Assembly (NCBI GenBank): GCA_025363655.1 | Contig: JANYDK010000091.1 | Span: 1 to 54,800, forward strand | Length of the DNA: 54,800 nucleotides | Origin: Deltaproteobacteria bacterium | GTDB lineage: Bacteria > Myxococcota_A > Polyangia > Polyangiales > JADJMO01 | Reading direction: 5' to 3' | Notes under the pieces: generated by a model | What the model was told of the DNA's origin: nothing | What the model saw: the letters and a program-made list of their open reading frames with translations, nothing else | Databases searched by the model: none | Part shown: positions 49,178 to 54,800 of the stretch, in pieces | Layout of the letters: the number at the start of each line of letters is the position of its first letter | How positions within the stretch are numbered: position 1 is the first letter of the stretch | Position numbers and translations under genes: made by a program

Positions 49178-50449
49178 ATGCGGATAGGAATCATCGGAGC
49201 TGGCCAGGTGGGCAAGACGCTGGGACTCGCCTGGGCGAATGCCGGGCACGAAATCGTCTACGGCGTGCGGGAGAGCGGACTTCCCGCTCCGCACGCTGGG
49301 GCGACCACCGACTCGGTGCGAGGTGCGGCCGTCGCGGGCGAGGTCGTCGTGCTCGCGACTCCCTGGGCGGTCGCCGCCGACGCTCTGCGTGCGGCCGGCG
49401 ATCTCGGAGGAAAGCCGCTGCTGGATGTGACCAACCCGATCGGTCCTGGGTTTGCTCTCACCCACGGTCATACGACGTCGGGCGCGGAAGTGGTGGCGCG
49501 CCTCGCGACCAACGCACGCGTCGTCAAGGCGTTCAACACGACGGGCCTCGAGAACATGGCGAACCCGCTTTTCGGGGAGCGGCGCGTGGTGATGCCGGTC
49601 GCGGGCGACGATTCTTCCGCGGTGGATGTGGCCGTGAGACTTGCCTCGGACATCGGCTTCGAAAGCGTCGGCCTAAAGGGCCTTTCGCGGGCGCGCGAGC
49701 TCGAGCCCCTGGGTCTATTGTGGATCAAGCTCGCGCTCCAGTGGGGAAATGGCCGCGACATCGGCTTCGGAATTTCGCGGCGCAGCGCGAGTTCGCCGAC
49801 ACCCGCGATCGCACCGAGCGCGCAGCCGCGCAGCATCGTCATCGTCGGCATAGGGAACATCGGTGAGGCGTTGGCGCGCGCCTGGCTTCGCGCCGGACAC
49901 GATGTCCGGGTAGCGGTGCGGGACGCCTCCTCGAAGGAAGTCGCAGGCCTCGTTGCTCTCGGCGCCAAGGCGGTGCCCGTGCCCGGTGCGGCCGACGGGG
50001 CCGATGTCGTCGTCTTCGCGATCCCGGCGGGTGCGGTCGTCGACGTCGCGAAATCGATGGGTTCCCTCGAAGGAAAGGTCGTCGTCGATTGCACCAACGC
50101 CATCGCCAAGGGGTTCACCTTGCAATACGGCCACACGACGTCGTCCTCGGAAGAGATTGCGCGCGCCCTCCCTGGCGCCAAGATGGTCCGCTCGTTCAAC
50201 CAACAGGGCGCCGAGGTCCTTCGAAATCCGTCATTCGGAGGCGTCGCGGCAACGAACTTCGTCGCGGCAGACGACGACGACGCGCGCCACTTGGTGCGCG
50301 ACCTTTCCGCCGACGTCGGCCTCGACTCCGTGGAGGCTGGCCCTCTGTCATCAGCGCGGGTTCTCGAGCCCATCACGCTCTTGTGGATCGCGATGGCACA
50401 AAAGATCGGCACGCGTGAATTCGGCTTGTCGCTGATGCGCCGAAGCTGA
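49178..50449 (+). CDS. Tandem-fused NADP/F420-type oxidoreductase
   Basis: A 423-residue protein made of two copies of the pfam03807-type NADP/F420 oxidoreductase fold. Copy 1 (about 1-205): GIIGAGQVGKTLG, LDVTNPIG, VVKAFNTTGLENM and LGLLWIKLA. Copy 2 (about 215-423): IVGIGNIGEALA, VDCTNAIAKG, MVRSFNQQGAEVL and ITLLWIAMA. Each has its own GxGxxG fingerprint. The usual family size is about 210 residues per chain, so this is a gene fusion of two paralogues. It is next to a DJ-1 protein and followed within 10 bp by a LysR gene, suggesting a redox or detoxification operon. Confidence 0.88.
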   Translation: MRIGIIGAGQVGKTLGLAWANAGHEIVYGVRESGLPAPHAGATTDSVRGAAVAGEVVVLATPWAVAADALRAAGDLGGKPLLDVTNPIGPGFALTHGHTTSGAEVVARLATNARVVKAFNTTGLENMANPLFGERRVVMPVAGDDSSAVDVAVRLASDIGFESVGLKGLSRARELEPLGLLWIKLALQWGNGRDIGFGISRRSASSPTPAIAPSAQPRSIVIVGIGNIGEALARAWLRAGHDVRVAVRDASSKEVAGLVALGAKAVPVPGAADGADVVVFAIPAGAVVDVAKSMGSLEGKVVVDCTNAIAKGFTLQYGHTTSSSEEIARALPGAKMVRSFNQQGAEVLRNPSFGGVAATNFVAADDDDARHLVRDLSADVGLDSVEAGPLSSARVLEPITLLWIAMAQKIGTREFGLSLMRRS

Positions 50450-51803: not shown

Positions 51804-51893
51804 CCCGCACTCGTCGGCATCCGCGACGCGCTCGGTGCGTGCGCGATGGGTGGGGTGGCGGGAAAGTGGGTGGGAAGAACCCGTCAACGAAAC

Positions 51894-51930
51894 AGGCCGT
51901 CCCGGGCTGAGCCACGGAACGGCCTTTTTT
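51894..51930 (+). terminator. Rho-independent terminator, copy 1
   Basis: AGGCCGT pairs with ACGGCCT (51919-51925), with an inner GGCTGAGCC stem-loop, followed by a T6 run on the plus strand. On the minus strand it is the terminator just past the tRNA 3' end. Confidence 0.8.
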
Positions 51931-51945
51931 CTCGCTGATTCTCAG

Positions 51946-51987
51946 TGGGCGTTACGTGATTTGAACACGTGACTTCAACCGTGTGAA
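51946..51987 (-). pseudogene. tRNA-Val(CAC) 3' half, copy 1
   Basis: On the minus strand positions 32-73 of a tRNA can be assigned: anticodon loop TTCACAC (anticodon CAC, Val), the 3' side of the anticodon stem, variable loop AAGTC, T stem ACGTG/CACGT with loop TTCAAAT, acceptor strand AACGCCC and discriminator A. CCA is not encoded. The D arm and 5' acceptor are absent, so it is a fragment. Confidence 0.72.
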
Positions 51988-52346
51988 GGAGACCGAAGGC
52001 GTTTCAGCGAGGTTCCCAGAGCCATTTTCCTGCGCCTTTCCGTTGCTGGGGCGTTCCCGGAAGTTGCCAGAGTTTTCGGGGAGGGGTGGGAAAGTGGGTG
52101 GGAAGATTCGGTGATGGATCAAGCCTCGGGACAGCTGGACAACCGGGCATCCGGCAGGCGTGCCGAGGTCGTCGACGTCGCTTACGAATCGCCGCGAGCG
52201 CTATTCGCCAAACACGGACTCGTCACGACGATGCTGGAGCAACGGCGATCGCGAGTCGAATGAACTACCATGCAAATGCTGCCCCACGTCGTCGTAGTGA
52301 AGTGGAGGGAACGAGCCTCTCACCACCTCGCGAAGGAGCCCACGCC

Positions 52347-53735
52347 ATGTCCGACCACTTCGACGAGATCATCATCGGCGCGGGCCAATCCGGCCCTTTC
52401 CTTGCCGAGAAGCTCGCGAACAGCGGCCGTCGCGTCGCGCTCGTCGAGCGCCGCTGGCTGGGTGGAACGTGCGTGAACGACGGCTGCATGCCGACCAAGA
52501 CGATGATTGCCAGTGCGCGCGCCGCGTGGGTCGTGCGCAACGCCGGGCGCTGGGGCGTGCGCACGTCCGGCGAGGTGACGATCGATTGGCCCGCCGTAAA
52601 GGCGCGGAAGAACGCCGTCATCGCGAAGTCGCGGGGCGGGCTCGAATCGTGGCTCGGCAACACCAAGAACCTCGAGATCGTCCTCGGCGAAGGTCAGTTC
52701 CTCGACGCGCGTACCGTCGTCGTCAGCGGCGACCGGACGATGACCGCCGATCGCATCTTCCTCAACACCGGCTGCAAGCCCATCGTTCCGTCGATCCATG
52801 GGCTCGCCGAAATCCCCTTCCTCACGAGCGAAACGATGATGGACGTGCCGGTCGTCCCGCGACACCTCATCGTCCTCGGCGGCAGCTACATCGGCCTCGA
52901 GTTTGCGCAGATGTTTCGACGCTTCGGGAGCGAGGTGACCGTCGTCGAGCGTGGCGAGCGCATCGCTGCGCGTGAAGACGAGGACGTGAGTGCCGAGCTG
53001 CAGCGCATCCTCGAGGGCGAGGGGATCGCGTTTCGACTCGGCGTCGAGGTACGCGTCGCGAAGGCGGCCGATGGCGGCGTCGAGATCGCGGTCGGCGCCC
53101 CTCGCAGCGAGTCGCTCGTGCGGATTGCCGGCAGCCACGTGCTCGTAGCGGTCGGGCGGTCACCGAGCACGCGAAGTCTCCGCCTCGAGCGCGCTGGTGT
53201 GGAGCTCGATCCACGCGGCTACGTGCAGACCGACGACGAACTGCGCACCAACGTCCCGCACATCTTCGCCCTCGGCGACGTCAACGGGCGCGGCGCGTTC
53301 ACGCACACGTCCTACGACGACTTCCACATCGTCTTGGCGAACCTGCTCGGCGCCGGCGGTCGACGGGTGAGCCAGCGGATCCCCATCTACGCCCTCTACG
53401 TCGACCCGCCGCTGGCGCGCTGCGGGATGAACGTCGCGCAGGCGCGCGCCTCGGGGCGGCGTGTGCTCGTCGGTCGGCGACCGATGTCGCGCGTCGGTCG
53501 CGCCAACGAGCGTGGCGAGAGCGATGGCTTCATGCAGGTGCTCGTCGACGCCGACACTCGGAAAATACTCGGTGCGACGCTCCTGGGCATCGAGGCCGAC
53601 GAGGCGATTCATGGCATCGTCGACGTCATGTACGCCGACGCGCCTTACGAAGTGCTGATGCGCGCGGTGCACGCACACCCGACGGTCTCGGAGTTGATCC
53701 CGACGATCCTCGAGTCGCTGGCGCCGCTGGTCTGA
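52347..53735 (+). CDS. Class I pyridine nucleotide-disulfide oxidoreductase (mercuric-reductase-like)
   Basis: A 462-residue FAD enzyme. FAD site IIIGAGQSG, redox-active disulfide GGTCVNDGCMPTKTM (C-x4-C), NAD(P) site IVLGGSYIGLEFA, second FAD motif IFALGDVNGRGAF, and a C-terminal HAHPTVSE with the His-Glu pair of the glutathione-reductase/lipoamide-dehydrogenase group. The N-terminal HMA domain and the C-terminal Cys pair of MerA are missing, so true mercury reduction is doubtful; RclA-like or lipoamide-dehydrogenase-like roles are possible. GGAG nine bases before the ATG decides the start over a longer open frame. It is the only gene between the two 106-bp direct repeats. Confidence 0.9.
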   Translation: MSDHFDEIIIGAGQSGPFLAEKLANSGRRVALVERRWLGGTCVNDGCMPTKTMIASARAAWVVRNAGRWGVRTSGEVTIDWPAVKARKNAVIAKSRGGLESWLGNTKNLEIVLGEGQFLDARTVVVSGDRTMTADRIFLNTGCKPIVPSIHGLAEIPFLTSETMMDVPVVPRHLIVLGGSYIGLEFAQMFRRFGSEVTVVERGERIAAREDEDVSAELQRILEGEGIAFRLGVEVRVAKAADGGVEIAVGAPRSESLVRIAGSHVLVAVGRSPSTRSLRLERAGVELDPRGYVQTDDELRTNVPHIFALGDVNGRGAFTHTSYDDFHIVLANLLGAGGRRVSQRIPIYALYVDPPLARCGMNVAQARASGRRVLVGRRPMSRVGRANERGESDGFMQVLVDADTRKILGATLLGIEADEAIHGIVDVMYADAPYEVLMRAVHAHPTVSELIPTILESLAPLV

Positions 53736-53812
53736 AGCGCGAGCGGAGCGGAGGACGAGCGTGCCGAGGTCGACGACGAGTGGGCCAAATGTCGAACGCG
53801 AGCGATTGCCGC

Positions 53813-53918
53813 CAACGAAAGAGGCCGTCCCGGGCTGAGCCACGGAACGGCCTGTTTTCTTGCTGATTCTCAGTGGGCGTTACGTGACTTGAACACGTGA
53901 CTTCAACCGTGTGAAGGA
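53813..53918. repeat. 106-bp direct repeat, copy 2 (tRNA-Val 3' half plus terminator)
   Basis: Counterpart of 51885-51990; four mismatches. The hairpin is at 53822-53853 with GTTTTC instead of the T6 run, just past the oxidoreductase gene. Confidence 0.85.
53874..53915 (-). pseudogene. tRNA-Val(CAC) 3' half, copy 2
   Basis: The same 42-nt tRNA 3' half as copy 1, with the T loop changed by one base (TTCAAGT) but the T stem, acceptor strand and anticodon loop unchanged. The sequence further 5' (higher coordinates) does not contain the missing 5' half. Confidence 0.72.
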
Positions 53919-53938: not shown

Positions 53939-54021
53939 CGTGTTTCCCCGTGACCAGCCGTGACGGAGGGTGAGAATTCTCGGTGTTTCCGTGACAGAGC
54001 GTGACGGGCGGTGACGGTCAG
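53939..54021. repeat. Two 41-bp units, each with three GTGAC motifs spaced 10 bp
   Basis: GTGAC or GTGAG occurs at 53950, 53960 and 53970, and again at 53991, 54001 and 54011, exactly one helical turn apart in both triplets. Both triplets are preceded by GTGTTTCC. GAGAATTCTC (53972-53981), a perfect 10-bp palindrome, separates them. The form resembles iterons or arm-type recombinase sites. Confidence 0.72.
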
Positions 54022-54031
54022 GTGGTGCGGA

Positions 54032-54061
54032 AGGTGGTGCGTTTTCGGAAACGCACCACCT
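54032..54061. other. Perfect 13-bp hairpin
   Basis: AGGTGGTGCGTTT and AAACGCACCACCT flank the 4-nt loop TCGG. An extra AGGTGGTGCG copy at 54020-54029 precedes it as a direct repeat. No T tract, so not a typical terminator; possibly a protein-binding hairpin of a mobile element. Confidence 0.6.
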
Positions 54062-54485: not shown

Positions 54486-54656
54486 CTAGTGCACCGCATG
54501 CGAGATCCGCGCAAGCATTCGGCGGTGTGAGCGGATGATCGCGTTGGCAGGTTTGGTCCACGCGAACGGCGTGGGTTCTTCGTTCCAATGGGTCATGTAT
54601 GCATCGATGTGCTGACGCAGAGCGGTCTTGCTCGGGAAGTCGCTGACGCCGAGGAA
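54486..54656 (-). pseudogene. IS630-family transposase C-terminal fragment
   Basis: The reverse-strand frame reads FLGVSDFPSKTALRQHIDAY, then MTHWNEEPTPFAWTKPANAI and a terminal helix to a TAG at 54486-54488. The order L/I-x3-I-x-x-[FY]-x3-WN-E-x2-PF-x-WTK is the C-terminal signature of IS630 transposases. The catalytic DDE part is absent. Confidence 0.72.
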
Positions 54657-54675
54657 TTGCGGCTCTCCGAGAGGT

Positions 54676-54800
54676 TTAGTGGAAGCTCGGCACGGCGTGC
54701 GCTGGGCGCAGCGTGAGGCCTGAGCAGCAGAGGAAGAGCATCGCGATGAGGCTCGAGGCGCTGTGCAGACCGTAGGAGCGACGGGTGATGGTGCGCGCCT
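54676..54800 (-). pseudogene. ISL3-like transposase C-terminal fragment, runs off window
   Basis: The reverse-strand frame reads RTITRRSYGLHSASSLIAML and FLCCSGLTLRPAHAVPSFH to a TAA at 54676-54678. The RRSYG and SLIAMLFLCC elements resemble the C-termini of ISL3-type transposases. The rest lies beyond the window edge, so it may be intact there. Confidence 0.5.

Follow-up and report, generated by a model that had tools for sequence, protein, structure and literature searches.

Two direct repeats near the right end of the window, by which we mean the whole stretch of 54,800 nucleotides that was analyzed, are very probably att sites, each consisting of a displaced tRNA-Val(CAC) 3' half and a terminator left behind by successive tyrosine-integrase integrations at a single tRNA gene. 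The window is an entire contig (C79) of this genome (G000), and the assembly searched amounts to 9.0 Mb in 150 contigs. Between the two candidate att cores lies one recognizable gene, encoding an oxidoreductase.

Copy 1 (51885-51990) and copy 2 (53813-53918) are identical at 102 of 106 positions by direct comparison within the window, exactly as first counted, with four mismatches at 51893, 51926, 51933, and 51960; a repeat-finding tool stretched the pair to 51881-51990 and 53809-53918, at 95% over 110 bp. The copies are in direct orientation and enclose a segment of 1.9 kb. Read on the minus strand, both run CCTTCACACGG...CGCCCACT, which is the 3' half of tRNA-Val(CAC), and continue into a hairpin set between A-/T-rich flanks that folds stably in both copies (Table 1), in agreement with the original prediction of a tRNA 3' half plus terminator in each. 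The copies cease to be homologous exactly at the crossover point within the tRNA in one direction and shortly past the terminator in the other. The window holds no third copy of the repeat and, according to ARAGORN, no intact tRNA. Additional att copies or arm clusters were not found in the rest of the window either, and the far end of any element to the left of copy 1 is thus unseen.

Stable hairpins and a conserved T arm might also be taken as marks of functional RNA elements, made of a tRNA-like T arm and a terminator and transcribed in their own right. We give this reading almost no credence, since neither copy has a tRNA 5' half and hence a complete acceptor or D stem, and the T-loop change in copy 2, like a one-base deletion in the third copy described below, is what would be expected of unused displaced ends.

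Table 1. Features at the right end of the window, with strand and the basis of each assignment
Feature	Position	Strand	Basis
Arm-like repeat TCTTCCCACCCACTTTCCC, downstream (tRNA sense) of copy 1; candidate arm site of an older left-hand element	51852..51878	-	Direct repeat D7 with 52080-52106
Copy 1 terminator hairpin, part of putative att core	51885..51944	-	RNA fold -30.4 kcal/mol, z -5.4
Copy 1 tRNA-Val(CAC) 3' half, putative att core; position 30 to discriminator plus one or two bases	51945..51990	-	51 bp, 98% to C51:89034-89106
Two arm-like repeats TTCCCACCC on the upstream side of copy 1 (tRNA sense); may be the right-end arm site of the oxidoreductase segment	52080..52106	-	At 52092, 52104
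FAD-containing oxidoreductase, PRK06370-type; probable cargo of the segment	52356..53732	+	Pfam Pyr_redox_2 and Pyr_redox_dim; NCBIfam NF004992
Copy 2 terminator hairpin, part of putative att core	53813..53872	-	RNA fold -27.9 kcal/mol, z -4.8
Copy 2 tRNA-Val(CAC) 3' half, putative att core; one T-loop change vs intact gene	53873..53918	-	96% to C51 tRNA 3' half
Two arm-like repeats CGCACCACC of another type on the upstream side of copy 2 (tRNA sense); may be the right end of a later element	54021..54061	-	At 54029, 54041
End of IS630-type transposase frame	54486..54800	-	Similarity to C51 copy alone; no Pfam match of its own

The intact tRNA gene and the 3'-half copies

A search of the assembly found a single intact tRNA-Val(CAC), at C51:89034-89106, with nearly the same 3' half as the window copies. 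Its match to copy 1 (98% over 51 bp) runs from C30/C31, the two bases at the end of the anticodon stem's 5' strand, to just after the discriminator. The original prediction had the 3' half right, and its start at tRNA position 32 has to be moved two bases earlier. The genome therefore contains an intact tRNA of the same identity whose 3' end matches the fragments, and the identity begins at a recognized crossover sublocation, the anticodon loop (position 30-32). The terminator of copies 1 and 2 differs from the sequence beside the intact gene, which on its 3' side has a different sequence with another set of short repeats; this makes it probable that the intact tRNA is itself followed by yet another element. 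The stretch of C51 from the tRNA to the contig end has genes for an Abi_C-domain protein of the abortive-infection type, located just downstream of the tRNA (L008 10628-11539), and for an IS630-type transposase.

One further copy of the repeat, a third tRNA-Val(CAC) 3' half with a one-base deletion, was found elsewhere in the genome (C105:3691-3795, 96%). The similarity there extends beyond the core: all 237 bp of copy 1's arm-core-arm module are matched at 86%, between unrelated flanks and with IS remnants adjoining on C105. Conservation from arm to arm in such a setting would suit a module that spread through homologous recombination or as a segmental duplication, with no integrase acting at these sites. 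We regard this as quite improbable, because the homology between copies 1 and 2 ends exactly at the crossover point and just past the terminator, and because the arms in the flanks are of two types, which is what separate integrations would leave behind.

Integration at the tRNA is thus the reading we prefer, with the intact gene and the window copies on separate contigs (C51 and C79) in this genome and the corresponding tRNA and fragment on one contig and one strand in two relatives, G003 and G004. The original prediction expected the intact tRNA to the right of 54800; in this assembly it is on C51. The last 150 bp of the window (54651-54800) recur at 98-100% identity at the ends of contigs C53, C127, C56, C26, and C58, and also in others, so that assembly break points fall in or near IS sequence, and the repeat is apparently the terminal part of an IS630-type element at which the assembly breaks. 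Over 47 bp, the frame at 54486-54800 is 83% identical in nucleotides to the terminal part of the C51 gene for a DDE_3 transposase. Since the two IS sequences differ (83%), the IS630 ends of C79 and C51 give no grounds for claiming a link between these contigs.

Integrases and arm-like repeats at the same tRNA in relatives

The tRNA-Val(CAC) 3'-half sequence is present in all four of the other genomes of the same family with which we compared this one. G004 has an intact tRNA that starts near C2:33225 and, 61 kb away on the same strand, a 3' half at C2:94639; in G003 the corresponding positions are C184:3110 and C184:26049, again on the same strand, 23 kb apart. In both genomes the tRNA is closely followed by a tyrosine integrase gene whose 3' end faces it. 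The two integrase proteins are 48% identical; their matches to Pfam Phage_integrase are weak and do not exceed the curated cut-off, and the one from G003 matches PHROG integrase families (E 4e-32). In each genome an island is bounded by the intact tRNA, with the integrase beside it, and the displaced 3' half downstream. A third relative, G001, has a partial copy with integrases of the same family on both sides. Every partial copy matches the tRNA from position 30-32 on, with unrelated sequence upstream. Elsewhere in the order, matches to the query are essentially limited to the tRNA-Val 3' half, which occurs once in nearly every matching genome.

Short tandem repeats recur at similar distances on the two sides of these cores. 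At the ends of the G004 island, GCATGCAGACCACC repeats at -118 and +111 match at 19/20, and at those of the G003 island GGAGCACCAC repeats at -115 and +124 match at 18/20; shuffled controls for such pairs reached maxima of 15-16 (16 for G004, 15 for G003). Copy 1 is flanked in the same manner by TTCCCACCC repeats at -118 and +110 from the core (19/20; shuffle maximum 16), so that the distances are alike across islands and copy 1 (-115 to -118 and +110 to +124). A 20/20 match links the left arm at the intact tRNA of G001 with the right flank of that genome's partial copy. The CGCACCACC repeats of copy 2, which best match the left arm of the G003 island (17/20), are confined to the outer (right) side of the copy, and no arm repeats were found on the inner side. 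By their position and pairing, these short repeats are candidate integrase arm sites.

No integrase gene or fragment was found between 51000 and 54800, where tblastn gave chance-level matches only; this bears out what was first said of the window, and the relatives' islands do have a tyrosine integrase in the interval. A near-complete gene of the G003/G004 family, the only one in this genome, lies on C60; it has an in-frame TAG stop and no adjoining tRNA half. It is accompanied there by genes for a phage-type exonuclease and a Sak4-like annealing protein (L051 5425-9829), and we take the locus for a prophage-like element in decay; no att site was found for it. A C-terminal remnant of a same-family integrase lies at about 14316-14501 on C78, beside a tRNA-Gly-like gene and CACC-rich repeats (L062 1321-1690), from which it follows that the family may use other tRNA genes too. 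An integrase gene also adjoins the tmRNA gene at the end of contig C142 (C142:1-1499; L014), and that tmRNA gene is likely to be another integration site. The terminator sequence of the att cores had no match in viral contigs.

The crossover in the anticodon loop that leaves tRNA 3' ends behind and the succession of integrations that had been proposed are thus well supported, by the intact tRNA and a third copy in this genome, by islands with an integrase at that tRNA in G003 and G004, and by arm-like repeats at fixed distances.

A model of stacked integrations and the place of the oxidoreductase gene

A tyrosine integrase would cross over in the anticodon loop of tRNA-Val(CAC), and the attP of the incoming element would bring a tRNA 3' half with its terminator, restoring the tRNA and shifting the old 3' half to the element's far end. 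Because the cores carry the terminator, each arrival could restore transcription termination as well. The order of events, the function of the arm sites, a deletion beside copy 2, and the linkage to C51 are all parts of the history that we infer. Proceeding in the direction of the tRNA, an older element with TTCCCACCC arms would have come first, its near end now forming the left flank of copy 1. A unit bearing the oxidoreductase would have followed, its far end marked by copy 1 and carrying TTCCCACCC arms. Third would have come an element with CGCACCACC arms, most of it lying beyond 54800, which displaced copy 2 from the tRNA; reading along the minus strand, copy 2 would be the far end of the youngest element seen. 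In the simplest view, a deletion beside copy 2 would have taken away the near end of the oxidoreductase unit.

The oxidoreductase scores 664.7 bits against NCBIfam NF004992 (cut-off 629). Homologues at E<=1e-100 are absent from the four same-family genomes, and homologues 53-65% identical occur in scattered genomes from other families of the order, with two more at 40-42%; this patchy distribution fits a horizontal acquisition. Its GC3 of 0.87 is usual for the window (0.83 +/- 0.04), so composition gives no sign of recent import. ARAGORN found no intact tRNA in the stretches surrounding the homologues. To the left of copy 1, PfpI and LysR genes are close neighbors, as they also are in G004 (contig C66), away from the tRNA-Val copies, and this adjacency neither supports nor excludes their status as cargo. 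Beside them, at 49178-50446, is a gene resembling F420-dependent NADP oxidoreductase, in which two Rossmann halves, 663 bp from each other, form an internal repeat.

If the 1.9-kb oxidoreductase segment were a complete minimal cassette, integrated in trans by the integrase of another element, then the stack would grow by one-gene insertions. Near-identical att cores in direct orientation at both boundaries, arm repeats at the standard distance at the copy-1 end, and the patchy homologues of the gene, absent from the same-family genomes, would all suit such a cassette. The copy-2 end, however, has no arms, whereas the relatives' complete islands have them at both ends, and a comparable one-gene unit occurs in no other genome examined, the relatives' islands measuring 23 and 61 kb. 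We therefore consider a trans-mobilized cassette unlikely. Its generalization, in which tRNA-Val(CAC) would be a landing platform for tiny one-gene cassettes dependent on trans-acting integrases, a tRNA-based counterpart of the integron array, is in our estimation very improbable.

The claim that the oxidoreductase is the cargo of a complete small element was an over-reach, given the lack of arm repeats at the copy-2 end and of an integrase. For the same two reasons, a deletion remnant or a leftover of the cis-mobilizable type is likelier than an intact tiny element, and most likely the segment is the residue of a larger element that lost DNA by deletion beside copy 2. Its att-type flanks and its want of integrase and transfer genes are those of a CIME, and as a CIME-like unit it might still be movable in cis. 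We do not file the interval 51885-53918 as a complete mobile island, because the integrase is absent from it and the tRNA and the copies are on separate contigs; it works like islands at tRNA sites, from which it probably derives.

With stacked integrations as the best explanation, tRNA-Val(CAC) emerges as a hot spot for integration, where stacked elements, arm-like repeats in pairs, and a single integrase family occur across the five genomes compared from this bacterial family. It would account for an isolated oxidoreductase gene as probable island cargo, and it suggests that att cores carrying a terminator can preserve both the tRNA 3' end and termination through repeated insertions.

Relation to known tRNA-site and tandem islands

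When an element integrates at a tRNA gene, its own 3' half rebuilds the gene and the old 3' half goes to the far end (Islander, PMC4383910). The anticodon-centered site A accounts for 2083 of the 3919 islands in that collection, which also lists 125 tandems (PMC4383910). The relatives' islands resemble this class in their intact tRNA, the fragment in the same orientation, the tyrosine integrase beside the tRNA, and the crossover in the anticodon loop. The window interval departs from it in having no integrase, and at 1.9 kb it is below Islander's 2-kb floor and would be rejected there (PMC4383910); unlike in that class, moreover, the repeated core in the window consists of the tRNA half together with a terminator that travels with it.

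The tandem ssrA islands of Dehalococcoides, of which the 15 integrase-less members have been discussed as cis-mobilizable elements, offer a similar picture: displaced 3' fragments line up downstream of a single RNA gene, and some of the units lack the integration module that others have (PMC3146451). There a serine recombinase acts at a site in the tmRNA T loop, whereas here a tyrosine integrase would act in a tRNA anticodon loop. Compared with the CIMEs related to ICESt1 and their accretion (Pavlovic et al. 2004, as cited in PMC3146451), the window segment differs in having no inner arm at copy 2; it shares with them the cargo between att sites, the lack of recombination genes, and the neighboring elements at the same site. 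The known class to which all of this belongs is that of tRNA-site islands with an anticodon-loop crossover, here in stacked form.
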